From a virus: DNA of 64,000 nt. This document shows, piece by piece, positions 28,421 through 63,603 of the stretch. Numbering within the stretch: the first letter of the stretch is position 1; each line of letters begins with the position of its first letter. The stretch is taken from positions 1 through 64,000 of the IMG/VR virus record IMGVR_UViG_3300042450_002433; one strand, 5' to 3'. The notes beneath the pieces are model-generated. The model saw nothing but the letters and a program-made list of their open reading frames with translations. It had not been told where the DNA came from and did no database searches. The position numbers were made by a program, and so were the translations under genes.

Positions 28421-28466
28421 TTTTGATGTGGTCGTATTATGGTAATTAGAAATCTGCATCACATTT

Positions 28467-28538: not shown

Positions 28539-28542
28539 TTTT

Positions 28543-28624
28543 GGGAGAATACTCAAGCGGTCAACGAGGTTTGACTGTAAATCAAATGGCATTGCCTTCG
28601 GGGGTTCGAATCCCTCTTCTCCCA
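28543..28624 (+). tRNA. tRNA-Tyr (GTA)
   Basis: Acceptor GGGAGAA/TTCTCCC, anticodon loop CTGTAAA, a class II variable arm of about 14 nt as expected for tRNA-Tyr, T-arm GGGGTTCGAATCCCT. Confidence 0.93.
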
Positions 28625-28629
28625 TTCCC

Positions 28630-28701
28630 GCCATCTTAGCACAGAGGTAGTGCAGTTCACTTGTAATGAACAGGTCATCGGTTCAAATCCGATAGATGGC
28701 T
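28630..28701 (+). tRNA. tRNA-Thr (TGT)
   Basis: Acceptor GCCATCT/AGATGGC, anticodon stem GTTCA/TGAAC with loop CTTGTAA, T-arm ATCGGTTCAAATCCGAT. Confidence 0.93.
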
Positions 28702-45594: not shown

Positions 45595-45600
45595 TCGACA

Positions 45601-46482
45601 ATGAAGAAGACAATACTGTTTTATAATGAATTGCACAATGGCGACATTCACATGTCAAGACCATATGTTATGGATATGATGCAGATTCTTGGGGACAATG
45701 ATTATTACTATTATCATAGAAACAATCCAAAAATTCTATCAGATATTGAGAACTTAAAAACCATTTCCGATTTAAATGTACTTCCAACATCTCCAGATCT
45801 AAAAATCAACGCATGGATAGGACAATTTTCATGGGATGACAAAGGAAACCATTGCTCCCCATTTTATGGATGTAATTTTCCATCTTACTATGAGGTAATG
45901 AAAAAGGTATATCGTGGTCTTGGTATTGCAGATAAAATCAAACCAATAACACACTATATTCCCACGATAAACTACAGCAAATATTCAATAGAAAATATTC
46001 AAAAATATTTCTCAAACAACACACAGAGACATGTCCTACTATGCAACAATAAAGTTGCTTCTTCACAAGCACCAAATGATCCTATGAATTCTATGATTGA
46101 GCAATTGGCATGTCGTTTTGCCGATATCACTTTCATAATTTCAAACAAAAACAATCTCGAAGAAATACTAAAAAAAGACAACATCGTTTATGCTCAAGAT
46201 ATCATTAAAGATCCAACCATAGACTTTGATATGAATGAGATATCGTATATTGGAACCAAATGCGATGTAATCGTTGGTAGGTCTTCAGGGCCTTATGTTT
46301 TTTCAATCACAAAAAATACGGCACACTCTAAACAATTTATTTGCTTTTGTAACAATGTTAATGATGCTTGGTGGTTTGAAAACAGTACAAACATATTACA
46401 CAGTAATGATCATTCCCACATGCTGGATATTATTACATCTGCCATTCAGAATCATCAGTTCTCTAAACCTGTGGAATATTGA
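45601..46482 (+). CDS. Putative glycan-island protein (glycosyltransferase 9-like?)
   Basis: 293 residues. It starts with a Rossmann-like strand (KTILFYNELHNGDIHMSRPYV in part) and has a C-terminal region CDVIVGRSSGPYVFS that resembles the glycosyltransferase B-fold acceptor loop GxSSGP found in family 9 transferases. The composition is clearly more A/T-rich than the phage core genes, suggesting recent acquisition. The donor sugar is unknown. Confidence 0.65.
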   Translation: MKKTILFYNELHNGDIHMSRPYVMDMMQILGDNDYYYYHRNNPKILSDIENLKTISDLNVLPTSPDLKINAWIGQFSWDDKGNHCSPFYGCNFPSYYEVMKKVYRGLGIADKIKPITHYIPTINYSKYSIENIQKYFSNNTQRHVLLCNNKVASSQAPNDPMNSMIEQLACRFADITFIISNKNNLEEILKKDNIVYAQDIIKDPTIDFDMNEISYIGTKCDVIVGRSSGPYVFSITKNTAHSKQFICFCNNVNDAWWFENSTNILHSNDHSHMLDIITSAIQNHQFSKPVEY

Positions 46483-46483
46483 T

Positions 46484-47299
46484 ATGAGTTTACCTTCATT
46501 AGTCATTGGTAAAACCTCTCAATTATCACAGTATTTTCCCAATGAATTTGTAAAAATTTCATCTAGAAACTTAAACCTAGATGAACTATCAAAACAAAGA
46601 TGGGGAACTGTGTTTCTATGTTTTGCAGAACAGCGAACATATCTTGCCAATTCAAAAGAAGATTCTGTTGAAAATTTATTTTGGAATATTAACAAGAATT
46701 TGGTTGAAGAAGTTATTCAATGCCTCACTAATGTTAGTGATAAAATCATATATTATTCAACTGCGGAATTGTGGAATAAATGTAACGGGGAAATATGTTT
46801 AGATTTGCCTTTCGATTTCCACAGCAACCACTACACCAATTCAAAGTGTGTAATCACCCGAGAGTTGCAGAACAAAGAGAAGTATCCAAAGGTTTCGATT
46901 GCATACCCATTCAACTTCAACAGCATCCACAGAGGTGATCAGTATCTCTTCGGCAAAGTGTTCAAGTCGATCCTCACTGGCGAGAAGATCACCGTTGGGG
47001 ACATCGACTACTACAGGGAACTCCTGCACCCTGAGATGGTCGTGCATGCAAGTATGTACTACACGGAGCAGGGTAAGGATCTGATCATTGGTTCGGGACG
47101 CTTGGTTCACATTGGTGACTTCATCAGAAGACTGTACGAATTCTTTGGGATGAGGTTTGACAGCATGGTGAAACAAGAGTACAATTCGCTATCGATCTAT
47201 CGCTCTAACATCTTCTACTCCTCTACTCATGTTCCCGAGTACGATGAGAGGAAACTTTTCAACATCATCACAAGGGAACTTGCCGAAATCAAAGGATGA
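46484..47299 (+). CDS. SDR-like epimerase/dehydratase relative
   Basis: 271 residues. SLPSLVIGKTSQLSQYF resembles a degenerate Rossmann start, IIYYSTAELWNKCNG corresponds to the SSxxVYG strand of extended short-chain dehydrogenases, and NSKCVITRELQNKE occupies the YxxxK region with Tyr not conserved. Activity is therefore doubtful. The first 320 nt are A/T-rich and the rest is clearly more G/C-rich, with the change near 46805. The start at 46484 follows the previous stop by 1 nt. Confidence 0.7.
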   Translation: MSLPSLVIGKTSQLSQYFPNEFVKISSRNLNLDELSKQRWGTVFLCFAEQRTYLANSKEDSVENLFWNINKNLVEEVIQCLTNVSDKIIYYSTAELWNKCNGEICLDLPFDFHSNHYTNSKCVITRELQNKEKYPKVSIAYPFNFNSIHRGDQYLFGKVFKSILTGEKITVGDIDYYRELLHPEMVVHASMYYTEQGKDLIIGSGRLVHIGDFIRRLYEFFGMRFDSMVKQEYNSLSIYRSNIFYSSTHVPEYDERKLFNIITRELAEIKG

Positions 47300-47304
47300 A
47301 CACT

Positions 47305-47658
47305 ATGAACACCCAATCAATCGCAAACGAAATCGAAAACAAAATCATCGAGAAGGTTCGTGAGACCCTTTCCAAAAGAACTCTCCCCGATCTCCCCGAC
47401 AACTTGGTCGCCACAGACAACATGGGTGAGGTGATCGAGAAACTGTGCATCCTCCATATCCGCACATGGCTGCTAGAGGACATGGTTGGTGTCGCCAAGA
47501 CCGATGAAGAGGTTGCCGCCCTCAAGCGCAAGATCGACATCTGTTTCAAGCAGAAGCGTCCTCAGTACATTCAGGCAATCAACCGCATGATCGATGAGTC
47601 AATCGTGAAGGGCAAGAGCCTCGTTGAGGATTCCGTCAAGATCTACAGGGGGAACTGA
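47305..47658 (+). CDS. Small helical protein, possibly DUF4254-like
   Basis: 117 residues, all helical. NMGEVIEKLCILHIRTWLLED and KTDEEVAALKRKIDICFKQK suggest the DUF4254 family found in polysaccharide clusters. AAAGGA 8 nt upstream of 47305 decides the start; ATG 47296 overlaps the previous stop. It lies wholly in the G/C-richer patch. Confidence 0.7.
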   Translation: MNTQSIANEIENKIIEKVRETLSKRTLPDLPDNLVATDNMGEVIEKLCILHIRTWLLEDMVGVAKTDEEVAALKRKIDICFKQKRPQYIQAINRMIDESIVKGKSLVEDSVKIYRGN

Positions 47659-47662
47659 ATCG

Positions 47663-48838
47663 ATGAAGCAGCCAATCACCTTGGTTGGGGACACGATTGG
47701 TCAGGACGATATCTCGTCTCTGATTGCATGGCTACACACCAATCCCCGCCTGACTAAAGGGATCAACACAGTCGAGTTTGAACAGGAATGGAGTCATTGG
47801 CTTGGCTGCAAGTATTCCGTCTTCGTCAACTCAGGCTCTTCGGCTAACCTAGCGATCTTCTACGGTCTCATTCTTTCGAACAGGCTGAAGAACAAGAAGG
47901 TTGTGTTCCCATGCCTGTCTTGGGTCACTACCGTTGCACCAGCCATTCAATTAGGTCTTGAGCCAATCCTCTGCGATTCGGATAGCAATCTAGGAATCGA
48001 CACCGAGAAGTTCGAGGAGATCTGCAAGCGAGACAACCCTGCCGCCCTGATGGTTGTGCATGCATTAGGCTTTCCCAACGACATGAAGCGGCTACAGGAG
48101 ATCTGCACCAAGTACGGTGTCATCCTGTTGGAGGACTCGTGCGAGAGCGTGGGTACGACCGTGTGTGGGAAGAAGACTGGTGCCATCGGTTTGGCTTCAT
48201 CGTTCAGCACCTATTATGGTCACCACTTCTCCACGATTGAGGGTGGCTTCATCTGCACGGATGACTATGAGTTGTACAGCATCTTTAAGAGCATTCGCTC
48301 TCATGGTTGGTCTAGAGATTTAGATGAGGTATCCCGAAAAAATCTACAACTAAAATATGGCATAGATGACTTTAGAAACTTATACACATTCTATTATCCT
48401 GGATTCAATCTGCGATCCACAGATCTACAAGCATATATCGGAAGATTGCAACTTAAAAAACTTGACAGATTTTGCAATACTCGTTGGGAGAATCTAAAGT
48501 TATATGATAGTCTAATTGTGAATGATGAGTGGAAAATAGATATTAGCAAATTTGAATTTGTTTCCAATTTTGCATATCCAATCATCCATTCTCATTCATC
48601 CGAGATTGTCAATCTATTGACAAGTAATCTTGTGGAATGTAGACCTCTTATTGCAGGAAATATATACCGTCAACCATTCTTTTATGAAAAATTTGGAAAT
48701 CCTCTTTTTGAATATCCATTTGCAGACAGAATCCATGATCACGGGATATACCTTCCAAATAACGCAGATATTACCAAGGAAGATATTCATTTAACATGTT
48801 CTATCATAAACTCTATCACAACAAATCACAAGCAATAA
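47663..48838 (+). CDS. DegT-type PLP enzyme with catalytic His (sugar 3-dehydratase-like)
   Basis: 391 residues, DegT/DnrJ/EryC1/StrS family: NSGSSANLAIFY (cofactor phosphate), PCLSWVTTVAPA, VLLEDSCES (Asp for the pyridine nitrogen), then SSFSTYYGHHFSTIEGGF. In aminotransferases this last motif has Lys; here it reads GHH, as in ColD and DdhC-type 3-dehydratases that use His to make 3-deoxy sugars. It would act on an NDP-4-keto-6-deoxy-hexose. The G/C-richer patch ends inside this gene at about 48315. The start at 47663 was chosen; an upstream in-frame start at 47624 lies in the previous gene. Confidence 0.85.
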   Translation: MKQPITLVGDTIGQDDISSLIAWLHTNPRLTKGINTVEFEQEWSHWLGCKYSVFVNSGSSANLAIFYGLILSNRLKNKKVVFPCLSWVTTVAPAIQLGLEPILCDSDSNLGIDTEKFEEICKRDNPAALMVVHALGFPNDMKRLQEICTKYGVILLEDSCESVGTTVCGKKTGAIGLASSFSTYYGHHFSTIEGGFICTDDYELYSIFKSIRSHGWSRDLDEVSRKNLQLKYGIDDFRNLYTFYYPGFNLRSTDLQAYIGRLQLKKLDRFCNTRWENLKLYDSLIVNDEWKIDISKFEFVSNFAYPIIHSHSSEIVNLLTSNLVECRPLIAGNIYRQPFFYEKFGNPLFEYPFADRIHDHGIYLPNNADITKEDIHLTCSIINSITTNHKQ

Positions 48839-48860
48839 CAAAAAGAAATGGATTAAATAA

Positions 48861-49487
48861 ATGAGTGACATTATACTGACAATTGCAATCCCATCTATCC
48901 CTTCTCGTATTCGTATGAATCTAGAGCCATTATTTTCTCGCCTAATGACGCAGATTGGTTCTCGTAAAGATGTAGAGGTAATTTCACTTCTTGATAATAG
49001 GAGCATGAGTATTGCAAGCAAAAGAAAGAAACTCTTAGATATATCGAGAGGAAAGTTTTGTACTTTCCTGGATGACGATGATGATTTTGCCCCAAGTTAT
49101 ATTGACGATGTGACATCTGCGATTGTAGCAAACAGTAATGTTGATGTTATTTGCTACAATCAACAAGCATTTATTGAGAATGTGGAGTATCTTGTTACCA
49201 CAGATATTGATGCACCGATTAATCCTTTTGACCAATTACCAACAACACCAAGAGACAAAAGTGGGAATTTTATCCCATGCCGCCGTCCACCGTGGATATG
49301 GTGCGCTTGGAATGTTAATCTATTAAGATCTATTGATTTTGGAGATTCATCGTTTGGTGAGGATGCAAACTTTATTGCTTCTGTTATGCCAAAAGTAAAA
49401 ACACAGTTTACAATCCCAAAGCCTCTGCACATATACAGATGGTCAAGTACTACCACATCAGTAACTGCTCCTTGGAGTAACCATTGA
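48861..49487 (+). CDS. Family 2 glycosyltransferase
   Basis: 208 residues. LTIAIPSIPSRIRM, VISLLDNRSMSIASKRKKLL and TFLDDDDDFAPSYIDD parallel the 44998 product closely, so the two are paralogues. A C-terminal GEDANFIASVMPK gives the ED motif of GT-A enzymes. Confidence 0.85.
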   Translation: MSDIILTIAIPSIPSRIRMNLEPLFSRLMTQIGSRKDVEVISLLDNRSMSIASKRKKLLDISRGKFCTFLDDDDDFAPSYIDDVTSAIVANSNVDVICYNQQAFIENVEYLVTTDIDAPINPFDQLPTTPRDKSGNFIPCRRPPWIWCAWNVNLLRSIDFGDSSFGEDANFIASVMPKVKTQFTIPKPLHIYRWSSTTTSVTAPWSNH

Positions 49488-49543
49488 TTAATAAAGTAGA
49501 AAAGCCATGGGGATCGTATGAAACCATCTATTGTGATAAATGA
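49484..49543 (+). pseudogene. Remnant of a cupin-type mannose-6-phosphate isomerase gene
   Basis: A 19-codon frame beginning at TTG 49484 and ending with TGA reads KVEKPWGSYETIYCDK, which is the start of type II mannose-6-phosphate isomerase-type cupins. The rest of that protein (about 100 residues or more) is absent. The following 70 nt read in another frame as MKPSIVINDSKPDMTDTAEA without resemblance. It looks like a truncated gene at a cassette junction. Confidence 0.5.
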
Positions 49544-49611
49544 TAGCAAGCCTGATATGACTGATACTGCTGAAGCAATTGTTGTAATACGAAATAAAGG
49601 AATTAAAAACA

Positions 49612-50388
49612 TTGAACTCTGAAAATAATAAAAACTGCTCCCTCTTTGTCGTATTTCATTCTCGCCTACACGAAGAGCAATATCTAGGGAACGAGGTAGC
49701 ATATACCTTTGTCAAAGTTGGCGATATGCCCACACAAATAACATCACCAAAGATTCGTGAAGGAGTTATTGAGTGTTGTAATATGTCTGGGTTTGTGAAT
49801 AAGGGGAAGCATTGGGCAGAGTCTGAATTTTTGATCTCTCTATACCATACCCTTAAGAAAAATCCAAACTATCTAAACGGTAGTCGTTGGGTTGGATTTT
49901 TACAATATGACCATACATGCACTTCTAGAAAGGGAGAGAATCTCCTTGCCCACCTACAAGAAAATCTAGAACAAATAGGAGACGAAAAGGTTGTATGTTT
50001 TGCCCCAATTGATTTGGCTACTGAAATTAATTCAAATCACATTGCAATGGATTTTTCAAATCCACAAAAACTTCGAGGAGATCCCCTCTGTTATTTCCCA
50101 ATGATTGCAGACTATAATAAGTTCTATGGAACGAACCATAAATATATAGACTTCACTAGGAACAAATCTATTGCACTGTGTTCGGCTTTTGTTATCAGTA
50201 CCGTAAATTTCATGAAGATGATGGAATTTGTAATATGGGCTGCTGACAAAAACAACTTAGATCAATTTGATCCTGAACGAAAGCATCGTCTTGCAGGAGG
50301 TCTCATGGAACGATACTACGGCACATGGATTGCATTGTCGGGTATTGAACTTGTTGAATTTCCTTTAGGGGAATTGACACATCTATGA
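49612..50388 (+). CDS. Putative glycosyltransferase (DUF4422-like)
   Basis: 258 residues from a TTG preceded by AAAGGA; the next ATG in frame is at 49726. LFVVFHSRLHEEQY, WVGFLQYDHTCTS and LAGGLMERYYGTWIALSG follow the pattern of DUF4422-like transferases (start strand, YDH acidic site, final ERxxxxW helix). A/T-rich composition like the rest of the island. Confidence 0.7.
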   Translation: MNSENNKNCSLFVVFHSRLHEEQYLGNEVAYTFVKVGDMPTQITSPKIREGVIECCNMSGFVNKGKHWAESEFLISLYHTLKKNPNYLNGSRWVGFLQYDHTCTSRKGENLLAHLQENLEQIGDEKVVCFAPIDLATEINSNHIAMDFSNPQKLRGDPLCYFPMIADYNKFYGTNHKYIDFTRNKSIALCSAFVISTVNFMKMMEFVIWAADKNNLDQFDPERKHRLAGGLMERYYGTWIALSGIELVEFPLGELTHL

Positions 50389-50453
50389 TATCATATCACA
50401 AACTTAACCCCATAAAGATTTAATCTCAGCCCGACATCATAGAACCCAAAACC

Positions 50454-51383
50454 ATGACAAATTCTACCTTTAAAACTTCCTATATCACCCCCCATTCAAT
50501 ACAGTCAATCGTTTTTCAGAACTCTCCAATTGGCTTTGGATCTACATTAATCCACCTTATCGGATTGGTAGAGTATTGTGTTCGACATGAAATTGATTTT
50601 CAATTTGATCGGCGTGGAATATTGTCATTGTATCTAGATGGATCTGAAGATCCATGGCAAAGAGTTTTTGGTGATGATTCTTTCAAAGATGTTAAATTTA
50701 ATCATTCTCGCAAGCACTCAGTTTTTGTTAGTTTGCCCCATTCTTTTCCTTTTTTTACATATATGCAAGTGTGTGATGACAAGACTCTGTTTATTTCAGA
50801 CAAATGGGCAAGAAAATTCAATCCAATTATCAAAGACTTTTTGCCTTTGTCTGCTGAAATGAAAGAGCAAATACAAAAGGACAAAGAATATGTTATGGTT
50901 GGAAATGTTCTTGGCGTTCATCTGAGAGGAACAGATTCAACGAATCATGGAAAAGCAGTATCACTGGAAGATCGTATAGAACAAATCAAAACCTATATGA
51001 TTGATAAAAATTATGACCGAATTTTTCTAATGACTGATGAATCAAGTTACTTAACCAAAGCAATCCAAGTTTTTGGAGATAAATTGGTTTTCCTTCGGGA
51101 TGTTAAAAGAAGTGAAAGCAATTTGTCGCTACATCATCACAGAAATCTTCCAATTGGATTAAAACTTCTATATGATATTGTTAGGGAAATGAATATCCTT
51201 TCAATGTGTAATGGTCAAGTGCTTGGAAGAAGTGGAGTTTCTGCGGTCATTCGATGCATGAATCCCGATGTTCCTTATAAAGTATTTGATGATCCAAATC
51301 TACCCAAACACGATCTTGCTGCTTGGAAAAATAAATTGTCTGAAGAACAAAATGTTTCATATACAACTTTGGAGTATCAATAA
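50454..51383 (+). CDS. Putative fucosyltransferase-like glycosyltransferase
   Basis: 309 residues. VLGVHLRGTDSTNHGK corresponds to the HxRxTD peptide I motif of alpha-1,2/1,6 and O-fucosyltransferases, FLMTDESSYL is the following strand with the TD site, and LGRSGVSAVIRC resembles the GxxSS motif. GDP-fucose use is inferred from the motifs. The stop overlaps the next gene by 1 nt. Confidence 0.78.
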   Translation: MTNSTFKTSYITPHSIQSIVFQNSPIGFGSTLIHLIGLVEYCVRHEIDFQFDRRGILSLYLDGSEDPWQRVFGDDSFKDVKFNHSRKHSVFVSLPHSFPFFTYMQVCDDKTLFISDKWARKFNPIIKDFLPLSAEMKEQIQKDKEYVMVGNVLGVHLRGTDSTNHGKAVSLEDRIEQIKTYMIDKNYDRIFLMTDESSYLTKAIQVFGDKLVFLRDVKRSESNLSLHHHRNLPIGLKLLYDIVREMNILSMCNGQVLGRSGVSAVIRCMNPDVPYKVFDDPNLPKHDLAAWKNKLSEEQNVSYTTLEYQ

Positions 51384-52108
51384 TGCTTAAACTACCTACC
51401 GTAACTGCTGTCTGCTTTGATGGAACTCTTGAGGGTAATCGTAGAGATAACCATATCAAAATTTTTGAAACCTTCAAAGATAAAATTGAATTTGGTGGAG
51501 GGATTAAGTATTTTTCTCATATAGATCCTAAATGTGAAGGGTTTGCCGATTACATCCACACAGACCCAATTCTGAATTTAGCAGAATATAGTGGAGTTGT
51601 AATTGATATTATGCCAAATCATGTGACTACAGATTTTGCAATGATTATTCATGACGATGGATTTCCTATCAACTTGCATCTTTGGAAACCTGAATTTCTA
51701 AATTTTGATTATATTGGTGCACCATGGGGATTAGAAGCAAACACATATCCACACCAATACTACAACAATCAAGTAGAGGGGGGAAATGGAGGGTTCTGTA
51801 TTAGATCTGCAAAACTAATGAAATTGGCACAATTTATCATGGACAAAATTGAACATCCTGCTAAAATTCGTGATAGAATTTCAAAAAATGCTTCATTCCA
51901 TGAAGATGGGTATATTTGTTATGAGATTCGCCACTTTTTAAAGCAACATGGATGTACCTTTGCACCATATAATCTTGCAAAACAATTTTCACTGGAAACT
52001 GTCCTTGAAGACGGGCCAAACGATATAACAAAAGTATTTGGCTTTCACGGAAAACGACACATCAATTTAGATCAGGCTATTGAAATTCTCAGTCAAACAA
52101 AAATTTAA
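51383..52108 (+). CDS. DUF5672-like glycosyltransferase
   Basis: 241 residues. VTAVCFDGTLEGNRR, LHLWKPEFLNFDYIGAPWG, GGNGGFCIRSAKLMKLA and HEDGYICYEIRHFL are the landmarks of DUF5672, a family of putative transferases in O-antigen-type clusters. The final FAPYNLAKQFSLE also matches. Starts on the previous stop. Confidence 0.82.
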   Translation: MLKLPTVTAVCFDGTLEGNRRDNHIKIFETFKDKIEFGGGIKYFSHIDPKCEGFADYIHTDPILNLAEYSGVVIDIMPNHVTTDFAMIIHDDGFPINLHLWKPEFLNFDYIGAPWGLEANTYPHQYYNNQVEGGNGGFCIRSAKLMKLAQFIMDKIEHPAKIRDRISKNASFHEDGYICYEIRHFLKQHGCTFAPYNLAKQFSLETVLEDGPNDITKVFGFHGKRHINLDQAIEILSQTKI

Positions 52109-52118
52109 GGTATAAACA

Positions 52119-52910
52119 ATGATTCCATCATACAGTATCACAATTCAAACATATCAATATCGTTTTGATTCATACTTCAAGGCTCTTCTTGCAAATGCTC
52201 ATCGCCAAAGACCAAATATTGAAAAAGTTATCTTTGTCAATGGGCAGCACAATCAGCAATTTGATGAAAATTATCGAAAGGGAATGACGCAGTATGTCTC
52301 AAATTTCCCCAACACTTTTTTAGTGATGTCCCCTTTCATGCGTGGATGTTCGTTCATGTGGAACACATCAATCAATTATACAAGTAACGACTATACCTTG
52401 GTATTGAGTGATGATATATCGTTTACGGATGGGTTCTTTGATGACTTTGAAAAGATATTAGAACACAATCATAATTTGGGGGATGAATCATTTCGAATTA
52501 ATACGCATTGGGGTCACTTCTGCATCTATCGTAAGGATGTGACAGACAAGAATCGTGTTGGATATTTTGACGAGAGACTTATTGGATTTGGAGAAGAGGA
52601 TGGGGATTGGATGTGGAGATTTCAGAGAAAATTCAATCGCCATATGAGAAACTTTGGTACTCCGAAGTTATTGAGTAACACCGACAACGATTGTCAACCT
52701 GGAAAGAATACAAGAACTCATAGTGGAACCAAATATAGTGCATACAATAAAGAGTTTCAATTTGGTCAAAAGATGGATATTGATCCTAATGGAACCAATA
52801 ATGCATGCGGAGTATATGGAAATTCTCCTCAAAAAATGAGAGAAGGAATGGATACTCCCGACATGTATCCAGGCGAAACTTGGTTCAGAAACAACATCGA
52901 TAAGTTATAA
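52119..52910 (+). CDS. Glycosyltransferase-like protein (GT-A type)
   Basis: 263 residues. YSITIQTYQYRFDSYFKALL, VLSDDISFTDGFFDD (acidic metal-binding site) and GYFDERLIGFGEEDGDW (acceptor-site motif with ExDxD) fit the GT2/GT27 type. Gln/Asn-rich C-terminus. One of at least six transferases in the island. Confidence 0.8.
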   Translation: MIPSYSITIQTYQYRFDSYFKALLANAHRQRPNIEKVIFVNGQHNQQFDENYRKGMTQYVSNFPNTFLVMSPFMRGCSFMWNTSINYTSNDYTLVLSDDISFTDGFFDDFEKILEHNHNLGDESFRINTHWGHFCIYRKDVTDKNRVGYFDERLIGFGEEDGDWMWRFQRKFNRHMRNFGTPKLLSNTDNDCQPGKNTRTHSGTKYSAYNKEFQFGQKMDIDPNGTNNACGVYGNSPQKMREGMDTPDMYPGETWFRNNIDKL

Positions 52911-52923
52911 GAGGAAGGCAATC

Positions 52924-53754
52924 ATGTTTTCAGTATATGGATCATCGGGCTTTATCGGAAGTAGATTCGTGGATATGTATCCAACAGAATCAATTGCAAT
53001 TGATCGGGAACAGAACAATCCCATGAGTGCTGATGTTTTGTACTTCATCAGCACAGCACACAACTACTATATTTTTGAAAAACCACATCTAGACATCGAT
53101 ACAAACCTCAACAAATTGATCGATGTATTAGAAGCGTTTCGATTAAACAATCCCAATGGAGTTTTTAATTTTATCAGTTCTTGGTTTGTATATGGTATGA
53201 ACTCCACAATGGACACCAAGGAATCTGATTATCCCGATCCAAGAGGATTTTATTCAATCACCAAACGAGCAGCAGAACAAATGCTCATGTGTTACTGTGA
53301 TACATATAACCTCAAATACAGAATCCTTCGAATGACAAACATCATTGGAGAAGGCGATAGGGGCGTATCCACAAAGAAAAACGCACTGCAACACATGATG
53401 GGATTGCTCAAGAAGAATGAGCCTGTCAGGTTATATGATGAAGGATCAAACATCAGAGACTATATGCATGTGGATGATGCCTGTAGGGCTATTCACTTAT
53501 GCATCAACAACTCACCAACAAACACAATAGTCAACATCAGCAATAGACAACCTGTAACTATAGGGGAACTTGTCAAATACAGTAAAGAAAAGATGGGATC
53601 TACTTCTGAAATTCAGTCGGTTGAAACCCCTGCTTCCCACAAAGTAGTGCAGTATGTTGCTGTATGTTTGAATAATGACAAATTGCTTTCATATGGATAT
53701 ACTCCATCCATAAATACACTGCAAGCAGTTGATCGTATTTTGAATTCCCTTTGA
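52924..53754 (+). CDS. NAD-dependent epimerase/dehydratase (extended SDR)
   Basis: 276 residues. GSSGFIGSR nucleotide-binding turn at 6-14, then ISSWFVYG and YSITKRAAEQ (the catalytic YxxxK), with RDYMHVDD in the substrate region. It is an NDP-sugar modifying enzyme; it might be the RmlD-like or an epimerase step with the RmlB/RmlC genes that follow. Confidence 0.88.
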   Translation: MFSVYGSSGFIGSRFVDMYPTESIAIDREQNNPMSADVLYFISTAHNYYIFEKPHLDIDTNLNKLIDVLEAFRLNNPNGVFNFISSWFVYGMNSTMDTKESDYPDPRGFYSITKRAAEQMLMCYCDTYNLKYRILRMTNIIGEGDRGVSTKKNALQHMMGLLKKNEPVRLYDEGSNIRDYMHVDDACRAIHLCINNSPTNTIVNISNRQPVTIGELVKYSKEKMGSTSEIQSVETPASHKVVQYVAVCLNNDKLLSYGYTPSINTLQAVDRILNSL

Positions 53755-53764
53755 AAGGTATATT

Positions 53765-54658
53765 ATGAAACTCATTGTGACGGGTGGAAGAGGATTTATT
53801 GGCAGTCATTTTGTCGAGTTGGCACTTAAAAATGGTGACTCTATTATCGACTATGACTGCATGACATATTGTGCAAATGAAGTTTTGCCATTTGATGACA
53901 ATCCAAACTACAAGCATGTATCGGAAAACATCTGCGATATCACACATCTCCCATCATGTGATGTGTTGATCAATTTTGCTGCTGAGACTCATGTAGACAA
54001 CTCCATCAATGACACAACACCATTCTTGAAAAGTAATGTTGTTGGTGTTCACAATCTACTTGAGATTCTTCGTGGCAAGCCGAGCCATGAGAGACCGCTG
54101 TTTGTTCAGATCAGCACCGATGAGGTTTACGGAGACCGATCTGAGGGCGCATTCCAAGAGTCTGATAAACTGACTCCAAGTAATCCTTACTCTGCATCGA
54201 AGGCTGCTGCTGAGATGTTTGTCTTGGGCTATCATCGAACATATGGTATGAATTATTTAATCACTCGTAGTTCAAATAATTATGGAGAACGACAGTATTC
54301 TGAAAAACTGATTCCCAAGAGCCTCGAATGCATTCATACCAACAAGAAGATTCCGCTTCATGGAGATGGCTCTTATGTGCGAGATTGGATCTATGTAAAG
54401 GACAATGTGTCTGCAATTTACACACTCATTCAGGGTGGCGCAAAGAACGATGTCTTCAACATTGGCGCAAACAACCACATGACCAATTTAGAAGTTGCCC
54501 TTGACCTACTAGAGTCTTTCGGAAAGGGGAAAGAAGGAATACAGTTTGTTGACAATAGATGGGGACAGGATCTTAGATATTCTCTCAGCACAGACAAGAT
54601 TAATAAGTTTGGGTGGACTGCAAAGCAAACAAAAGGACTATTCAAATGGTGGAATTAA
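53765..54658 (+). CDS. rmlB: dTDP-glucose 4,6-dehydratase
   Basis: 297 residues, shorter than usual RmlB (about 340-360). TGGRGFIGSHFVELAL at the start, AAETHVDNSINDT, ISTDEVYGD with the catalytic DE, YSASKAAAEM (YxxxK), SSNNYGERQYSEKLIP and VRDWIYVKDN. It makes dTDP-4-keto-6-deoxyglucose, the precursor for rhamnose or other deoxysugars. The truncation is in the C-terminal part, which ends FKWWN. Confidence 0.93.
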   Translation: MKLIVTGGRGFIGSHFVELALKNGDSIIDYDCMTYCANEVLPFDDNPNYKHVSENICDITHLPSCDVLINFAAETHVDNSINDTTPFLKSNVVGVHNLLEILRGKPSHERPLFVQISTDEVYGDRSEGAFQESDKLTPSNPYSASKAAAEMFVLGYHRTYGMNYLITRSSNNYGERQYSEKLIPKSLECIHTNKKIPLHGDGSYVRDWIYVKDNVSAIYTLIQGGAKNDVFNIGANNHMTNLEVALDLLESFGKGKEGIQFVDNRWGQDLRYSLSTDKINKFGWTAKQTKGLFKWWN

Positions 54659-54662
54659 TATA

Positions 54663-55211
54663 ATGCAAGTACAAAAATTGACAATTCCAGATGTGATTTG
54701 CTTCACGCCCAAGGTATTTGAAGATTCTCGGGGATTCTTCTACGAAAGTTTCAACGAGCGTGTATTTGAACAAGCACTTGGTCAATCCGCACCTCAATTT
54801 GTACAGGACAATCATTCACGCTCTGCAAAGGGCGTGTTGCGCGGACTGCACTACCAAACTAAGCAACAACCACAAGGAAAGTTAGTGCGTGTGTCGCAAG
54901 GAGAGGTGTTTGATGTTGCGGTGGATATCCGTAAGTCATCTCCCACATTTGGCAAGTGGGTAGGCGAAATTCTTTCCGCGCAGAACAAAAAGCAACTGTG
55001 GATCCCACCAGGATTTGCACATGGATTTTTAGTTCTCAGTGAAACCGCAGAATTCCTTTACAAGACCACAAATTTCTTTGCACCACAATTTGAGCGTTGC
55101 ATCGCATGGAACGATCCTCTTATTGGTATTGATTGGAAACTTGAAGGCATCGATCCCTTGTTGTCTGTCAAAGACATGCAAGGCAAACCATTAACAGACG
55201 CAGACTATTGA
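54663..55211 (+). CDS. rmlC: dTDP-4-dehydrorhamnose 3,5-epimerase
   Basis: 182 residues, complete. FEDSRGFFYESF, FVQDNHSRSAKGVLRGLHYQ with the catalytic His, GEVFDVAVDIRKSSPTFGKW, IPPGFAHGFLVL and YKTTNFF. With RmlB it gives dTDP-4-keto-rhamnose. No rmlA is visible in the window, so the host must supply dTDP-glucose; the reductase may be the 52924 protein or a host enzyme. Confidence 0.95.
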   Translation: MQVQKLTIPDVICFTPKVFEDSRGFFYESFNERVFEQALGQSAPQFVQDNHSRSAKGVLRGLHYQTKQQPQGKLVRVSQGEVFDVAVDIRKSSPTFGKWVGEILSAQNKKQLWIPPGFAHGFLVLSETAEFLYKTTNFFAPQFERCIAWNDPLIGIDWKLEGIDPLLSVKDMQGKPLTDADY

Positions 55212-55239
55212 CAAAAATTTTATAGAAAGACCATAACAA

Positions 55240-55869
55240 ATGAATCACATGACACCTATTAATCAAGGAACAAAAATGCAAAGCACACTCGATCAGATCT
55301 ATAGAACTCTTTACTATCAAAGTATTTGCCATCCAAACCATCACGATCTTCAGAACTCAGACAAGGGAACCCTTCACTCGTACATAGACTACTACGAATC
55401 CCTGTTTTCTTCTATCAGAGATAAACCAATTCGTTTATTGGAGATTGGGGTGCAGGGCGGTATCTCCCTTCTTATGTGGCGAGAGTACTTTCCAAATGCG
55501 GAGATTACGGGCATCGACATTGACCTAAGTACCTTGCAGGTGAAAGTCAAACAGGCGGCTTCGGCTGATAATCAAATTCGAATACTACAATTGGATGCTA
55601 CCTTACCAAGGGTAACTGATCATCTTTTGGGAAAGTACGATATCATTATTGATGATGGGTCTCATCAATTTGCCCATCAGATAGCAAGTTTCTTGATCTT
55701 AGAGGACTTTCTGAACAAAGATGGGCTGTATGTCATTGAAGATGTCCAAACAGAATCTGAGGCACAATATCTGAATAAGTTGATTCCCTCGTCAGAGATA
55801 GTTGATCTTCGCAAGGTCAAGAATCGATATGATGACCTGTTGGTTGTTCACAAGAAACAAAGCAAATGA
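55240..55869 (+). CDS. AdoMet-dependent methyltransferase (class I)
   Basis: 209 residues. LLEIGVQGGISLLMWREYF (in part), GIDIDLSTLQ and DIIIDDGSHQFAHQI follow the order of motifs in macrocin/MycE-type O-methyltransferases used on sugars. YVIEDVQTESE is motif V-like. Probably methylates a sugar of the glycan made here. Last gene of the island. Confidence 0.85.
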   Translation: MNHMTPINQGTKMQSTLDQIYRTLYYQSICHPNHHDLQNSDKGTLHSYIDYYESLFSSIRDKPIRLLEIGVQGGISLLMWREYFPNAEITGIDIDLSTLQVKVKQAASADNQIRILQLDATLPRVTDHLLGKYDIIIDDGSHQFAHQIASFLILEDFLNKDGLYVIEDVQTESEAQYLNKLIPSSEIVDLRKVKNRYDDLLVVHKKQSK

Positions 55870-55935: not shown

Positions 55936-57372
55936 ATGACAGATAAGATCGAACTCATTATCCTGCGAAGCCTGTTGCACCGTGCAGATTTCACCCGTAG
56001 AGTGCAACCCTTCCTGCGAGAAGAGTACTTTCATGACACCTGTGAGAAGAGATTGTTCAAGACAGTCTCTGAGTTTATCGGCAAGTATAACATTGCCCCT
56101 ACCCGCGAAGCACTGAATATCATCCTCAATCAGCAGGATGGGCTGTCACAGGGAGAATTTGACGAGTGTGTTAAACTCGTGGATTCTCTCGAAAAGACTA
56201 TCGATGAACCTGATGAGGCATGGCTCATCGATCAGACCGAGAAGTTCTGTAAGGACAAGGCAGTCTACAATGCACTCATGGAGTCTATTGAACTTCTTGA
56301 TGAGAAGAAAGCCAATGGAAGATCAAAGAATGCCATTCCCGAAATCCTAACATCGGCACTGAGCGTTTCTTTTGATGAACATATCGGACACGATTTCATT
56401 GATGATGCCGAGCAGCGTTATGAGTTCTATCATCGAGTAGAACAGAAGACTCCTTTCGATCTCGACTTCTTCAATCGAATCACGGCAGGAGGTGTTCCCG
56501 ACAAGACTCTCAATGTGATCCTCGCGGGCACAGGAGTGGGCAAGAGCCTGTTCATGTGTCATCATGCTGCCAACTGCCTAACACAGAGCAAGAATGTCCT
56601 ATACATCACCTGCGAGATGGCAGAGGAAAGAATCGCAGAGCGAATCGATGCCAATCTTATGGATATTTCAATGGATGAACTAAAGAAGTTGCCCATCGAT
56701 ATCTATGCCAAGCGTCTGTCCAAGGTGACTATGGGAATCACGGGGAAACTCCTGATCAAGGAATATCCCACTGCCGCAGCGAATGCCAACCATTTTCGGC
56801 ATCTGCTTGATGAACTGCGCCTGAAGAAGAACTTTAAGCCCGACATCATCTTCATTGACTATCTCAATATCTGTGCTTCGACTCGGTTTAAGCCAGGAGC
56901 AAATGTCAATTCGTATACCTATATCAAGGCAATTGCAGAGGAACTTCGTGGTCTTGCAGTTGAGATGAAGGTGCCAATCTTTACTGCAACACAGACGAAC
57001 CGTTCAGGCTTTGGCAATACGGATGTCGAATTGACCGATACCTCGGAATCATTCGGGCTACCTGCCACTGCGGACTTTATGTTTGCTCTGATTGCAACCG
57101 AACAATTGGATGCAGTCGGTCAGGTCATGGTCAAGCAATTGAAGAACCGTTACAATGATGTTGCTGCCAATCGTAAGTTTGTGATTGGGATAGATCGTTC
57201 GAAGATGAAGTTGTTTGATGTTGATGAATCACAGCAACAGTTGATTCAGGGGAATCATTCTGCTGATGCAGAGGATGAGAACACAGACAATGGCTTTGAC
57301 TCTCCAAACAAGGGTGGCGGGGGGTATGGCTACAAGAAGGGAAAGAAGCCCTCTATGGGTGATTGGTCTTAA
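55936..57372 (+). CDS. 41: Replicative DNA helicase (DnaB-like)
   Basis: 478 residues (T4 gp41: 475). N-terminal primase-interaction region with RSLLHRADFTRRVQPFL; RecA-like core with Walker A LAGTGVGKSLF (about 195-206), Walker B IIFIDYLNI, and the H4-type TATQTNRSGFG. It unwinds DNA 5'-3' on the lagging strand with the gp61 primase. No gp59 or primase gene is in the window. The C-terminus is Gly/Lys-rich and ends MGDWS. The reading frame is certain, so the absence of a leader is informative. Confidence 0.95.
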   Translation: MTDKIELIILRSLLHRADFTRRVQPFLREEYFHDTCEKRLFKTVSEFIGKYNIAPTREALNIILNQQDGLSQGEFDECVKLVDSLEKTIDEPDEAWLIDQTEKFCKDKAVYNALMESIELLDEKKANGRSKNAIPEILTSALSVSFDEHIGHDFIDDAEQRYEFYHRVEQKTPFDLDFFNRITAGGVPDKTLNVILAGTGVGKSLFMCHHAANCLTQSKNVLYITCEMAEERIAERIDANLMDISMDELKKLPIDIYAKRLSKVTMGITGKLLIKEYPTAAANANHFRHLLDELRLKKNFKPDIIFIDYLNICASTRFKPGANVNSYTYIKAIAEELRGLAVEMKVPIFTATQTNRSGFGNTDVELTDTSESFGLPATADFMFALIATEQLDAVGQVMVKQLKNRYNDVAANRKFVIGIDRSKMKLFDVDESQQQLIQGNHSADAEDENTDNGFDSPNKGGGGYGYKKGKKPSMGDWS

Positions 57373-57489: not shown

Positions 57490-58689
57490 ATGCTGTCATT
57501 CAAACAAGCAAACAGAGTTCTTTCCGAAGAAGTAGTTCGAAATAAGCATCTAGACCATATAGAAGATCTGATGCTTCTTGAGGGTGAAAAAGGCTTAAAG
57601 TTGGCTATTGCATTCCTCAAAGATATTACAGAAAGCCTGAAAACAGGCTCGACTTCTTTAGGACTCTCCACCAAATGGGATGGGAAACCTGCTATTGTGT
57701 GTGGGATTAATCCCGAAAACAATAAGTTTTTTGTTGCTACCAAGGGAGCATTTAGCAAAACTGTCTCTGCATATCACACCGAAGCAGAAATACGGAAAGG
57801 TGTGTCGATTTCCGATCTTGCCGCAAAATTGATCGAGTGCTTAAAGTATCTGCCAGGACTTGGCATCAAGGGAGTATTGCAGGGCGACTTGATGTTTACG
57901 ATGGATTCCAAAAAATCACAGACGATTGATGGAAAAGAATATATTACTTTTGCTCCCAATACGATCATGTATGCAATTGAAAAGGACAGTGCCATTGGGA
58001 AATCGGTTTCCTCTGCAAAACTTGGAATTGCTTTTCATACCGTCTATAGTGGAAAAACGATGCAGGAGTTATCTGCTGTCTCCTTCAACTTTGATGCTAG
58101 TACCCTGAAAAAGAATGCAAATGTGTGGTTCACTGACCCCAACATATATGACATCACGGCTGCACTTCTCAAGCCTGATGAATATGGCAAACTTATGGGC
58201 ATGATCAAAGACTGTGAAGGAAAATCAAAAAAGGTATCGCCGTTCCTGAAGGTTCTTCTTTCCAATGCACAGTTAGTTGAATACATCCTTCCATATATAA
58301 ATGCCACCATTAATGGCGGTCTTTCACAATTTTCTGCCCGTGGTCTTAAGTTGAATTTGGAAACCAAGTTAAACAAGGACATTGAAAAACTAAAGACAGA
58401 AAAAGGCAAGCAGGGCAAAAGAGATATACTGAACAAGTTGCTTGCCTTTGTTGATGCATACGAATCACAGTTCAATTCTATGTTTGAACTACATAATCTT
58501 ATCGCCAAAGCAAAAGAAATTTTGCTCGGTAAGTTCTATATGCTGTCTAGTTTCGGGCATTTCTTCGTGGATGACAACGGGATTTCTCCAACAGATCCTG
58601 AGGGTATTGTGGTTTCTCGTTCAGGAAGAGTCACTAAATTGGTAAATCGACTACGATTTAGTAGACAAAACAGGAAGGTAAACTCGTGA
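57490..58689 (+). CDS. Putative capsid-targeted nucleic-acid ligase-like nucleotidyltransferase
   Basis: 399 residues. LSTKWDGKPAIVCG contains the ligase motif I KxDG with K62 as the candidate adenylated lysine; DPEGIVVSR with E371 fits motif IV and RLRFSRQN motif V is poor. This matches the DUF6267-type proteins of marine T4-like phages. MLSFKQANRVLSEEVV has LSE at residues 11-13. An RNA or DNA ligase or a capping-like transferase is possible; catalytic activity is not proven because motif V lacks a clear Lys pair. It overlaps the next gene by 4 nt. Confidence 0.78.
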   Translation: MLSFKQANRVLSEEVVRNKHLDHIEDLMLLEGEKGLKLAIAFLKDITESLKTGSTSLGLSTKWDGKPAIVCGINPENNKFFVATKGAFSKTVSAYHTEAEIRKGVSISDLAAKLIECLKYLPGLGIKGVLQGDLMFTMDSKKSQTIDGKEYITFAPNTIMYAIEKDSAIGKSVSSAKLGIAFHTVYSGKTMQELSAVSFNFDASTLKKNANVWFTDPNIYDITAALLKPDEYGKLMGMIKDCEGKSKKVSPFLKVLLSNAQLVEYILPYINATINGGLSQFSARGLKLNLETKLNKDIEKLKTEKGKQGKRDILNKLLAFVDAYESQFNSMFELHNLIAKAKEILLGKFYMLSSFGHFFVDDNGISPTDPEGIVVSRSGRVTKLVNRLRFSRQNRKVNS

Positions 58690-61600
58690 TAGAGCGTTTC
58701 TTACATCGAATTGACGAAGCAAAAAAAGACACAGCAGTTATTGCTTTCGGCAGAATGAACCCCCCGACCATCGGTCACGGTGTCTTGGTAGACAAGATTG
58801 TTTCCGAAGCGCAGAAGCACAATGCAGATCATTTCATATTTGCATCTGAAACACAAGACTCAAAGAAGAACCCCCTATCACATAAGCAAAAGGTTGCATA
58901 CCTTAAGAAGTTTTTTCCTAAGGGCAACTTTCCTGTAGGAATGGCAAAGGATCCGTATACTGCCGTTCTATATGTGTGCTCATTGGGATATAAGAACATC
59001 ATCATGGTTGCGGGAAGTGACCAAGTCGAAAACTTTAAAAACATTGCCAAGTATAAGGGCAAGGTTGCAGATCGTGATCCTAAGAAGCGTGTATATTCAT
59101 TTGAAAAATTCGAAGTAGTTCAGGCGGGTGAGGCACGGGATGATGACTCTCAAGGTGTTGAGGGAATGTCTGCTTCCAAGATGAGATCTGCTGCTTTCGA
59201 TGGAGACTTTAAAAAGTTTGCCACGGGCGTTCCAGGTAAGGATAATGCCACCAAGAAGAAGATGTACAGCGATGTTCGTAAGGGATTGAGTCTTGGGGAG
59301 TCATATATCTCAGAGGCTGTAAACCCAAGTGACAAGGTAACAATCCTTGCACTAACTTCTTCGGAAAAAGATCTATCCGATACAATCGAAAAGATGCAGG
59401 AAATCTGCAAGAAGCGCAAAATTGAATTCTATGCAGTGAAGACTTCTAAAGCACAAGTAGAAATTTCAAATGTTACTTCGAAGAAAATCACTATCAAGAA
59501 TTATGACGGTGAAGGTAAAGATATCACTGTTATCCCAAGCGACACAGTAGCAGTTGTTCGTGGTGGTGTGATGAATAGTGATATCGGTGTTGCTATCATG
59601 ACCATCTTGCAGAACAATGGAGTGTTCATGATCAATGAGCGTGGAGGAATGGAACTCTGTGCAAACAAACTAGAAACTGCAATTGCTCTCAAGAAACACA
59701 ATCTCCCACACCCACGCACAACATTTGTTGCAGACGAAAGCAATATTGAAACTGCCGTTAAGGAAATTGGTGGTAAGTTCCCCGTCATCGTAAAGACTCT
59801 TACGGGGGCTGAAGGCATCGGCGTGTCCAAGATTGAAAGCATGGAAAGCCTGAAGTCTGTTCTACAAACTCTATGGAAATACAATGCCGAAATCATTATG
59901 CAGGAATTCCTGCCTGATTTCAAGAATGATGTTCGCAGCATCTGCCTGAATGGTAAAATTTTTGCCTGTGCAAAGCGGGATAAGGCTCCTAAGGATTTCC
60001 GCACAAACATTGCCCGAGGTTCAAAGGGTGGTGCATTCCAACTCTCTGATGAAGAAATCAAGTTGGTGGAGGAAGCCGCTCGGGTTAGCAAGTGCTACTA
60101 TGTCGGAGTTGATCATGTAATCAATGATGGTAAGCCATACATCATTGAAATGAATGCAAGCCCAGGCAGTGGTAATATCTACTACCGCTATTATGAAGAC
60201 GGCAAGGGCAAGAACAATGTCGAGGGCAAAGAGTTGGTCGAAGATTTTGTTGAATATATTCTCAACAAATCCAATTGGAAACTGTTCTCCAACCTCACTG
60301 TTCGTGAAACAGTTAAGATTGATGGAGTCGAATATGAAGCCAAGGTCGATACAGGCAACAGTGGCTACAATATGATTCATGGCGAAGACATCAAAGACAA
60401 TGGAAACCACACGGTTACCTTCAAACTGTCGAATGGTAAAAAGATTACCAAGAAAATCGTCAGTCGAATTATTGTCAAGAGTGGTATTGGGGAGAAGAAG
60501 CGACTTGTTATCTTCATGGACATTGAATTCCATGGAAAGAAATACCCAAACATCAAATTCTCAATTGGTGATCGCAACCATATGTCCACCAAAGTCCTTC
60601 TCGGTCTGCAATTCCTGAGCAAGACAGGAATGTTGGTTGATCCTGCGGAGGCAATATACCCACAGAATCAAACGAAAAAAGAAGAACATGTCAATCTTAA
60701 TAGCAATACACTTTATGAAAAACTCACAAAAAACGGACAGTTAAAAGAGTTAAACAATCGATACGAACAGGACGATGCATTCGAACGCCTTGCGAAGATC
60801 GATCAGAGCGATACAACAAACAACAATAAGATTCGCCTTTCTATTGCATATGAAGAACGCTGCCTGACCCGCAATATGCAGGATGGGGCATATCTAGCAC
60901 GAACCTATATTGAATTCCTCAAAGAGATTCGCAATTCTGAGTTGGGTTCGAATCAGCCTAAGACTGATATCAACGAAGACTTCGAATTCTTTTTACTTGA
61001 AGTTAGCCCACCCAAAGGTGCTGCACGAAGTTTCTCAAAGGATGAAAAAACCAAAGCATCATTCCGAAAACAATATGGTAAGCGGTGGAAGGAAGTGTTC
61101 TATGCGACTGCATGGAAGATGCATGGAGAAGATGTAGAGCCGTCTGAGACATGGCTTGATGAGGCTAAGAAAATCAACAATGTGTTGAAATGGACTTCTA
61201 TGAGTAAGAGAGGCCCGTTACTCATCGGCACCGATAAGATTGTAAAAACCTACAAGCATGACACCCCTGGCGAGCGGAAAGAAATTGAAGAAGATAAGCC
61301 TTGTTGGGTAGGGTTTAAACAATTGGGAATGAAGATGAAGAATGGGAAAAAAGTTCCTAATTGTGTGTCCGTAAAGGAAGATACTTCTGAAGAGGAGATG
61401 TCGGATCTCTATAAGGAATGGCAAAAACTTGTAAATATGTCGGGCAAGGAGATTGATACATTCCTTGATTCTGATGACGGAACTGAGGCAGGACTGTCCC
61501 GCAAGGAGGCAGGTAAGGCAGGTGCAGACGGTGGTAAAATTAGTACAGGTCGAGATTCTGCCCGTGCAATCATTCGAATGCTAGATACCCCCATGGAAAA

Positions 61601-61757
61601 ATGGTCTGATAATGATTGGAAATGGGCAGGGAAGCAAGTCAATTTCATCAATCGAATGAAAGGCGCAAAAGGGCCTTTGAGAGACGAAGACAAAAAACCT
61701 ACTCGTAAATTGTTAGCACTTAAGGTATGGGGACACAACCCCGAAAAGGGATCATAA
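58686..61757 (+). CDS. Multidomain protein: nucleotidyltransferase, RimK-like ATP-grasp, aspartic-protease-like
   Basis: 1,023 residues. MIERFLHRIDEAKKD has IDE at 9-11 followed by A. Residues 15-200: cytidylyltransferase fold with GRMNPPTIGH (22-31) and MSASKMR (about 160-166), as in NMN adenylyltransferase. Residues about 300-520: ATP-grasp with MELCANKLETAIAL, FPVIVKTLTGAEGIGVSK and IIEMNASPGSGN, closest to RimK-type glutamate ligases. Residues about 535-655: VDTGNSGYNMIH, a DTG site like the RimB/retropepsin family. Residues 700-1023: basic helical modules (FRKQYGKRWKEVFYATAWK; WVGFKQLGMKMKNGKKVPNC), as in virion proteins of marine phages. RimK and RimB domains occur as neighbours in bacteria; here they are fused to a nucleotidyltransferase. 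The order of domains suggests a polyprotein cut in the head. Activities are inferred. Confidence 0.8.
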   Translation: MIERFLHRIDEAKKDTAVIAFGRMNPPTIGHGVLVDKIVSEAQKHNADHFIFASETQDSKKNPLSHKQKVAYLKKFFPKGNFPVGMAKDPYTAVLYVCSLGYKNIIMVAGSDQVENFKNIAKYKGKVADRDPKKRVYSFEKFEVVQAGEARDDDSQGVEGMSASKMRSAAFDGDFKKFATGVPGKDNATKKKMYSDVRKGLSLGESYISEAVNPSDKVTILALTSSEKDLSDTIEKMQEICKKRKIEFYAVKTSKAQVEISNVTSKKITIKNYDGEGKDITVIPSDTVAVVRGGVMNSDIGVAIMTILQNNGVFMINERGGMELCANKLETAIALKKHNLPHPRTTFVADESNIETAVKEIGGKFPVIVKTLTGAEGIGVSKIESMESLKSVLQTLWKYNAEIIMQEFLPDFKNDVRSICLNGKIFACAKRDKAPKDFRTNIARGSKGGAFQLSDEEIKLVEEAARVSKCYYVGVDHVINDGKPYIIEMNASPGSGNIYYRYYEDGKGKNNVEGKELVEDFVEYILNKSNWKLFSNLTVRETVKIDGVEYEAKVDTGNSGYNMIHGEDIKDNGNHTVTFKLSNGKKITKKIVSRIIVKSGIGEKKRLVIFMDIEFHGKKYPNIKFSIGDRNHMSTKVLLGLQFLSKTGMLVDPAEAIYPQNQTKKEEHVNLNSNTLYEKLTKNGQLKELNNRYEQDDAFERLAKIDQSDTTNNNKIRLSIAYEERCLTRNMQDGAYLARTYIEFLKEIRNSELGSNQPKTDINEDFEFFLLEVSPPKGAARSFSKDEKTKASFRKQYGKRWKEVFYATAWKMHGEDVEPSETWLDEAKKINNVLKWTSMSKRGPLLIGTDKIVKTYKHDTPGERKEIEEDKPCWVGFKQLGMKMKNGKKVPNCVSVKEDTSEEEMSDLYKEWQKLVNMSGKEIDTFLDSDDGTEAGLSRKEAGKAGADGGKISTGRDSARAIIRMLDTPMEKWSDNDWKWAGKQVNFINRMKGAKGPLRDEDKKPTRKLLALKVWGHNPEKGS

Positions 61758-63111: not shown

Positions 63112-63603
63112 ATGAAGTCTTATAAGCAACTGAGAAAAACAATTAATGAAAATGCACCCCACCAAAGTGCATATGATGCATCTGGAAGTGTTGGGCGTGT
63201 TGGCCCACAGGATGGTGACAATTCTCTCGATGGCAATTATAATCTGTCTTCATTGAGTCCTGTTGCAATCACTCGCATCAATACCTACTTGGGTGCACTT
63301 TCTGCAAAGCCATACATCGACCCTGTGTCTGCCTTGAAACAGGCACAGGGTAGACTTCAAATGATCGGTCTTGATTTCACAATGACCAAAGACTGTGCTA
63401 TGAGATTGTCAACACAGACCGAAGAAATTATTCCACTCGTTCGTTTTGGTGGAACTCTTCGTGCTGATGGATCTGTATATGGATATACAAAGGATGATGG
63501 AATTACTCATCTCCTTGGTCATGGTCTTGCTCTTCGTGTCGAAACACATAAACTTCCAAGTGGTCTTACCCAAGTACATGCAATGATTGTTCCTAACGGC
63601 TAA
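63112..63603 (+). CDS. Putative capsid-targeted or virion protein
   Basis: 163 residues. MKSYKQLRKTINENAPH has INE at residues 11-13, a candidate cut site. The central region QSAYDASGSVGRVGPQDGDN is flexible; a folded C-terminal half (LGALSAKPYIDPVSALKQAQ, then LVRFGGTLRADGSV) follows. It resembles a small virion-associated protein common in marine T4-like phages. It lies 12 nt after the structural gene. Confidence 0.75.
   Translation: MKSYKQLRKTINENAPHQSAYDASGSVGRVGPQDGDNSLDGNYNLSSLSPVAITRINTYLGALSAKPYIDPVSALKQAQGRLQMIGLDFTMTKDCAMRLSTQTEEIIPLVRFGGTLRADGSVYGYTKDDGITHLLGHGLALRVETHKLPSGLTQVHAMIVPNG

Follow-up and report, generated by a model that had tools for sequence, protein, structure and literature searches.

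A nucleotidyltransferase-RimK-RimB fusion as a probable head-packaged polyprotein of a T4-like phage

Main

Why would a phage place a nucleotidyltransferase (NTase), a glutamate ligase and a retropepsin-like protease on one polypeptide chain? The question is raised by a gene at 58686-61757 (+) of a 64,000-nucleotide stretch of viral DNA (positions 1 to 64,000 of IMG/VR record IMGVR_UViG_3300042450_002433; hereafter the window), part of a viral contig of 147,569 bases with T4-like replication and baseplate genes. A first-pass annotation, made from the letters alone, had read this gene as a fusion of NTase, RimK-like ATP-grasp and RimB-like domains and had proposed that its product is packaged in the head and acts on host proteins or NAD after injection. 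Here we consider it likely that a T4-like phage packages the fusion in its head as a polyprotein, which the prohead protease cuts to release the NTase and a RimK-RimB enzyme for injection.

Results

Domain organization of the fusion protein

The gene is a single open frame with a GTG start and no internal stops, encoding 1023 amino acids. Its features are listed below; a slash marks a candidate cut, and pLDDT is the predicted local distance difference test score of the structural model.

58686-58718 (+): capsid-targeting-type N-terminus MIERFLHRIDE/A (residues 1-11), candidate cut after E11; resembles relatives' starts; pLDDT below 50 at 1-12
58722-59294 (+): NadD/NMNAT-fold NTase (residues 13-203) with GRMNPPTIGH and MSASKMR; phrog_3041, invariant motif columns, pLDDT about 85-90
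59295-59330 (+): disordered linker (residues 204-215) with tandem candidate sites LGE205/S and ISE210/A; pLDDT below 50, conserved in relatives
59331-60269 (+): RimK-type ATP-grasp glutamate ligase (residues 216-528) with R292, R417, D476, E488 and N490; profiles, invariant columns, model
60300-60629 (+): RimB-type retropepsin-like aspartic peptidase (residues 539-648), catalytic D555 in DTG; PF05618, fold matches
60630-60707 (+): disordered segment after RimB (residues 649-674), QNQTKKEEHVNLN, no glutamate run; pLDDT below 50 at 648-674; 6-8 Glu here in most relatives
60714-60941 (+): helical module (residues 677-752); predicted helices, pLDDT about 85 over most of it
61005-61130 (+): SPPKGAARSF...ATAWKMHG module (residues 774-815); phrog_12788, weak; kept in fusion relatives
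61155-61166 (+): candidate prohead-protease site LDE826/A; within a segment of pLDDT below 50 (818-900)
61218-61385 (+): DTPGER and CWVGFKQLGMK..VPNCV modules (residues 845-900); phrog_4359, phrog_9737 and phrog_36547; matches in many phage proteins
61416-61730 (+): C-terminal module of DUF3140 (911-1006) and a weak DUF6321-like match (984-1015); domain search

Domain profiles, motifs and the uninterrupted frame agree with the first-pass annotation that one gene carries all three enzymes, with GRMNPPTIGH at residues 22-31, MSASKMR at 161-167, EMNASPGSGN from 488 and DTGNSG from 555. The NTase matches phrog_3041 (E=2e-52 over residues 11-210), and its model combines a nucleotidyltransferase fold, closest to the nicotinic acid mononucleotide (NaMN) adenylyltransferases 8aih and 3e27, with the GxxxPxxxGH and SxSxxR-like motifs of NadD/NMNAT enzymes. 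PF01467 scores below threshold on this domain (18.6 against a cut-off of 21), and its profile finds no match among PDB sequences. Because the modelled fold is that of NaMN adenylyltransferases, a role as an NAD-type enzyme is reasonable.

The ATP-grasp domain, described from the sequence as complete and ending in EMNASPGSGN, keeps its catalytic residues. It is recognized by PF08443 (E=1.9e-29) and by the subfamily model TIGR00768 (146.8 bits, above the cut-off of 143.4), and residues R417, D476, E488 and N490 are invariant across 41 sequences. An alignment profile searched against the PDB found 7qyr at E=1.1e-65, with S6-type RimK proteins preferred over LysX and cyanophycin synthetase. The full-length AlphaFold model was poor at RimK because the alignment was shallow there; a rerun of residues 214-665 with distant relatives reached a mean pLDDT of 82, and its best PDB matches were the Pseudomonas and Escherichia coli RimK structures (target-normalized template modelling score up to 0.86, 7qys_D). 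The glutamate contacts published for Pseudomonas aeruginosa RimK are R64, S68, R189 and N262 (PMC10092738), of which R64, R189 and N262 are kept as R292, R417 and N490 (three of four checked). Membership of the RimK family is supported.

Similarly, the predicted DTG site in a RimB-like domain holds up, as the domain scores 32.4 bits against PF05618 (cut-off 27), places D555 in the DTG motif and adopts a fold matching the Rickettsia retropepsin 5c9f and the equine infectious anaemia virus protease 1fmb. A fold search with the model returns RimK, NaMN adenylyltransferase and retropepsins independently of the profiles. The first-pass annotation had also called the segments behind the enzymes virion-type modules; their recurrence among phage proteins is compatible with such a role.

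The same order of NTase, RimK and RimB occurs at 71 IMG/VR loci from many metagenomes (22 non-redundant). An assembly frameshift joining separate genes is ruled out by 58 complete open reading frames (ORFs) of 958-1329 amino acids from independent metagenomes, which share the NTase and RimK core. Loss of catalytic residues is likewise ruled out, each fusion without DTG being truncated by a contig end, and chance similarity is ruled out by the E-values and the conservation.

Prohead-protease-type sites at the domain edges

Capsid-targeting sequences of T4 internal proteins end in a cleavage site of the prohead protease gp21, whose published motif is L/I-X-E (PMC9026906). The window protein begins in this manner, with L/I-x-E followed by a small residue (RIDE11/A). 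N-termini across the NTase family match T4 IPIII (MKTYQEFIAE/A) and IPI, as in the cyanophage starts MKSFLEFITE/A, MKSFGQFLTE/A, MKKFSAFLSE/A and MKKFSDFLTE/A and in the further relatives MKNFAQHITE/A and MTDRFSDYIGE/A.

Four [LI]xE[AS] sites occur in the window protein, after residues 11, 205, 210 and 826, each in a segment of pLDDT below 50. As their number in the whole protein is only marginally high (4 versus 1.3 expected, P=0.04), we relied on position-specific statistics over the family, using 71 non-redundant NTase proteins and 300 shuffles. The motif [LI]xE is present in 49 of 71 segments before the NTase (10.4 expected, shuffle maximum 21) and in 54 of 70 linkers after it (29.6 expected, shuffle maximum 39), and shows no enrichment within the NTase cores (33 of 71 versus 38.7 expected). 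Among the 22 representatives of the fusion, every linker between NTase and RimK contains a site of the form [LIVF]xE, in which P1 is always glutamate, P1' is alanine in 18, P3 is limited to I, V, L or F and as many as eleven residues occur at P2. An invariant P1 and a constrained P3 around a free P2 is the pattern expected if selection retains just the gp21 motif. The starts resembling T4 internal proteins, together with the enrichment before the NTase, support the capsid-targeting start that had been suggested.

Within the window, starts of the T4-internal-protein type (MK[ST][FY]...) are found in 12 of 89 selected ORFs, compared with 2 of 74 ORFs outside it on the same record, and cluster at 5430-12804, 21881-23094 and 63112-63603; judging by these starts, the ORFs probably form an arsenal of packaged proteins. 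At about 26216-26743 (+), an internal ATG yields MKSFTHHIKEASLGQIYCDMDGVL, a targeting-type start directly 5' of a HAD-like phosphatase motif. A 543-amino-acid protein at 19012-20643 (+) starts with MINDIQRRILAE/A and continues with further I[NE]E/S spacers and a YNGKKITVQAETSYKAQ module, and is possibly another multi-module packaged protein.

Packaging evidence from relatives

Two fusion-carrying relatives encode a gp21/S77 prohead protease (PF03420), and their major capsid proteins carry QEQYL[KR]E/[AS] close to where the N-terminal propeptide region ends. The NTase family corresponds to T4-GC190, which was detected in virions of cyanophage S-SM1 (PMC3037559), and another four virion proteomes from cyanophages include NMNAT-like or cytidyltransferase proteins (PMC10665884; PMC9602691). 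Furthermore, the RimK-RimB homologue of phage YerA41 was detected in particles by mass spectrometry (PMC7354516). The targeting start, the sites flanking the NTase and the virion detection of the family together support a head-packaged polyprotein, from which we infer packaging of the window protein.

Under this reading, the N-terminal sequence would load the precursor into the prohead core, where a gp21-type protease would cut at L/I/V-x-E sites, namely behind residue 11, behind 205/210 and perhaps behind 826, freeing the NadD-like NTase and the RimK-RimB enzyme. The freed enzymes would then enter the host together with the DNA. RimK would extend the C-terminus of some protein, of the host or of the phage, with alpha-linked glutamates, and RimB would trim them and might stimulate RimK, as published for the bacterial pair; the phage would in this way carry a preassembled writer and eraser.

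Several observations weigh against parts of this scheme. Fusions beginning MKTFSEAT or MKTFLEAT have F at P3 or lack an exact motif, HTVC008M has no N-terminal site, and in a few fusions none is clear. The record of the window phage is incomplete and without a head-gene block, so that its ORFs yielded neither a major capsid or portal gene nor a prohead protease. The YerA41 evidence is weak because many cytoplasmic enzymes were also found in particles. Regarding the target, the fourth glutamate contact, S68, is changed to M296, and bacterial RimBK gave no S6 glutamylation. The curated S6-ligase equivalog NF007764 scores 70 bits on the RimK domain against a cut-off of 331, which leaves S6 a guess for the target; identification of an S6 ligase by sequence was dropped. 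The RimB equivalog NF052261 reaches 23.5 bits against a cut-off of 200, and the RloA3 model is likewise below threshold. With both curated models far short of their cut-offs, family membership is supported and the substrate is not.

An NTase gene family with varied cargo

RimK precedes RimB in all 71 fusion loci, and the RimBK-hybrid order, with RimB N-terminal, was seen in none of them. Other copies of the NTase gene carry different domains behind the NTase, including zeta-toxin-like kinases (L086, L096 and L042), a glucosaminidase (L053) and an HNH domain (L104), and one, L083, has a Pol-beta-type domain ahead of the NTase. Such varied cargo makes the gene look like a delivery platform. One member of the NTase gene family, L049, carries a second RimK-RimB, inserted independently at another position, of the type found in Pelagibacter phage Mosig and followed by LSE/A; repeated acquisition of this pair argues for a function in the NTase-gene setting. 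Stand-alone Mosig-type RimK-RimB proteins also have a targeting-type start (VQPFKNYLEE/A).

In bacterial and archaeal genomes, a pattern-limited scan for RimK followed by RimB found only a Candidatus Izimaplasma contig and, as traces, a TMED93 contig similar to the Mosig phage. The former belongs to the Candidatus Izimaplasma HR2 metagenome-assembled genome (L193), encodes a RimK-then-RimB protein at 33% identity and may be phage DNA.

Alternative readings

One alternative, which we regard as possible though unlikely, is that the ATP-grasp domain ligates glutamate, or some other amino acid, to a small molecule in the manner of MptN, CofF and LysX, and that the peptidase acts on something unrelated. 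Chemistry varies within the RimK family, the MptN and LysX models also match the domain, and one of the four checked contacts differs. The best sequence and structure matches are nevertheless S6-type RimK proteins, well above LysX in the profile search; moreover, the domain is fused to RimB, whose sole known substrate is poly-glutamate, and three checked contacts are kept.

A second alternative would make RimB a maturation protease which, concentrated in the prohead through the capsid-targeting sequence, cuts poly-glutamate in the polyprotein that contains it, in the scaffold gp22, or in both, much as a retroviral protease does, and in this way frees modules and helps clear the core. One characterized RimB requires at least six contiguous glutamates and also cuts internal runs (PMC11957791). 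Of 21 representatives readable at this point, 15 show 6-8 consecutive glutamates immediately behind RimB and three show 4-5 (L016, whose contig ends before or near that point, was left out of the count), and this run is the sole one per protein and is written in mixed codons. In addition, gp22 carries 7-8 consecutive glutamates in both fusion relatives in which it could be linked to the fusion gene (L218:7910-9019 and L217:7180-8274 (-)), compared with no run of at least 4 in gp22 of six T4-like phages lacking RimB. Related gp22 proteins in IMG/VR have up to 11 consecutive glutamates, and others have none. Against this, the window protein and L181 have no run after RimB, gp22 and the fusion gene share a record in just those two cases, and gp22 of L332 and L333 lacks a run despite lying near the linked clade. 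Acidic tracts are common in prohead cores, the LxE after the run could be a gp21 site, and phages without RimB mature anyway. No RimB was found on the gp22-bearing contigs, a result of little weight since these are fragments. The correlation between gp22 poly-glutamate and RimB is suggestive but imperfect, and the run after RimB may be a RimB site, a RimK acceptor tail exposed by the prohead protease or an acidic linker. We hold a maturation role to be improbable, and a shade more doubtful still the wider notion that T4-like heads hold two maturation proteases, one of them a retroviral-type poly-glutamate retropepsin, plus a glutamate ligase able to build or rebuild the tracts.

Finally, there is little chance that the fusion is an ordinary intracellular multi-enzyme protein produced while infection proceeds (an auxiliary metabolic gene product) with LxE merely marking acidic flexible linkers and virion detection reflecting contamination: the cyanophage proteomics authors do voice the contamination caveat (PMC10665884; PMC9602691), YerA41 g112 is classed among the middle genes, and no late-promoter-like match lies directly upstream of the fusion gene (the ATAAATA motif occurring in the window no more than by chance), but family-wide starts like T4 capsid-targeting sequences, position-specific site enrichment and repeated, independent virion detection all oppose it.

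Genomic surroundings

Two genes upstream of the fusion place it at a locus shared with other T4-like phages:

55936-57372 (+): DnaB-like (gp41-type) helicase; phrog_19, E=1e-119; syntenic anchor of the NTase locus in T4-like phages
57490-58689 (+): DUF6267 protein (phrog_455), upstream neighbour overlapping the fusion gene by 4 bases; the two are neighbours at the corresponding locus in other T4-like phages

Elsewhere in the window, a phage-encoded transfer-messenger RNA (tag ARFNKKQSRRLALAA) lies at 27885-28237 (+) within a tRNA cluster at 26032-28701, and 43768-55869 (+) holds a block of glycosyltransferase/sugar-nucleotide-like genes (epimerase/dehydratase-like, RmlC-like), assigned by eye only.

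Discussion

Like the T4 internal proteins (IPI-III and Alt), the fusion begins with a short targeting sequence that closes with a gp21 site of the form L/I-x-E, and packaging and injection are proposed for it in the same way; those proteins are single effectors, however, whereas the fusion holds several enzymes in one precursor with internal sites. The cyanophage T4-GC190 proteins (cytidyltransferase/NMNAT-like) share a homologous NTase, a targeting-type start and a locus near gp41, and some share the terminal modules. Their isolate members were seen without RimK-RimB, which in the fusion is inserted between the NTase and the C-terminal modules.

Bacterial RimK and RimB (RimABK) and the RimBK of Desulfotalea psychrophila likewise pair a glutamate ligase with a poly-glutamate-trimming retropepsin, in the hybrid on a single chain as in the fusion. 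RimBK places RimB first, whereas here RimK comes first, inside a phage polyprotein. The order of the fusion is that of two stand-alone proteins, Mosig 00005 of a Pelagibacter phage and YerA41_066 of a Yersinia phage, at about 30% identity, although both lack the NTase and the C-terminal modules.

The nearest general class is that of the polyvalent proteins (Iyer et al. 2017, PMC5512222), in which a single injected chain unites several unrelated enzyme domains; the fusion matches their architecture and would share their packaging if the proposed reading holds. That paper mentions neither RimK nor retropepsins, and the proteases it discusses act in cis (PMC5512222), in contrast to the separate prohead protease proposed here. 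We found no description of a multi-enzyme precursor cleaved by a prohead protease in the literature searched, which is not proof of absence.

The finding joins two literatures, that of T4-type packaged effectors and that of the RimK/RimB protein-tail code. It also offers a search rule for unknown injected effectors, namely a targeting-type start combined with [LI]xE at the domain edges. If the proposed reading is true, prohead-protease sites would let a single precursor supply several separate enzymes, and a glutamate writer and eraser would be delivered to the host at time zero, a possible route by which a phage may rewire ribosomes or another glutamylated target.

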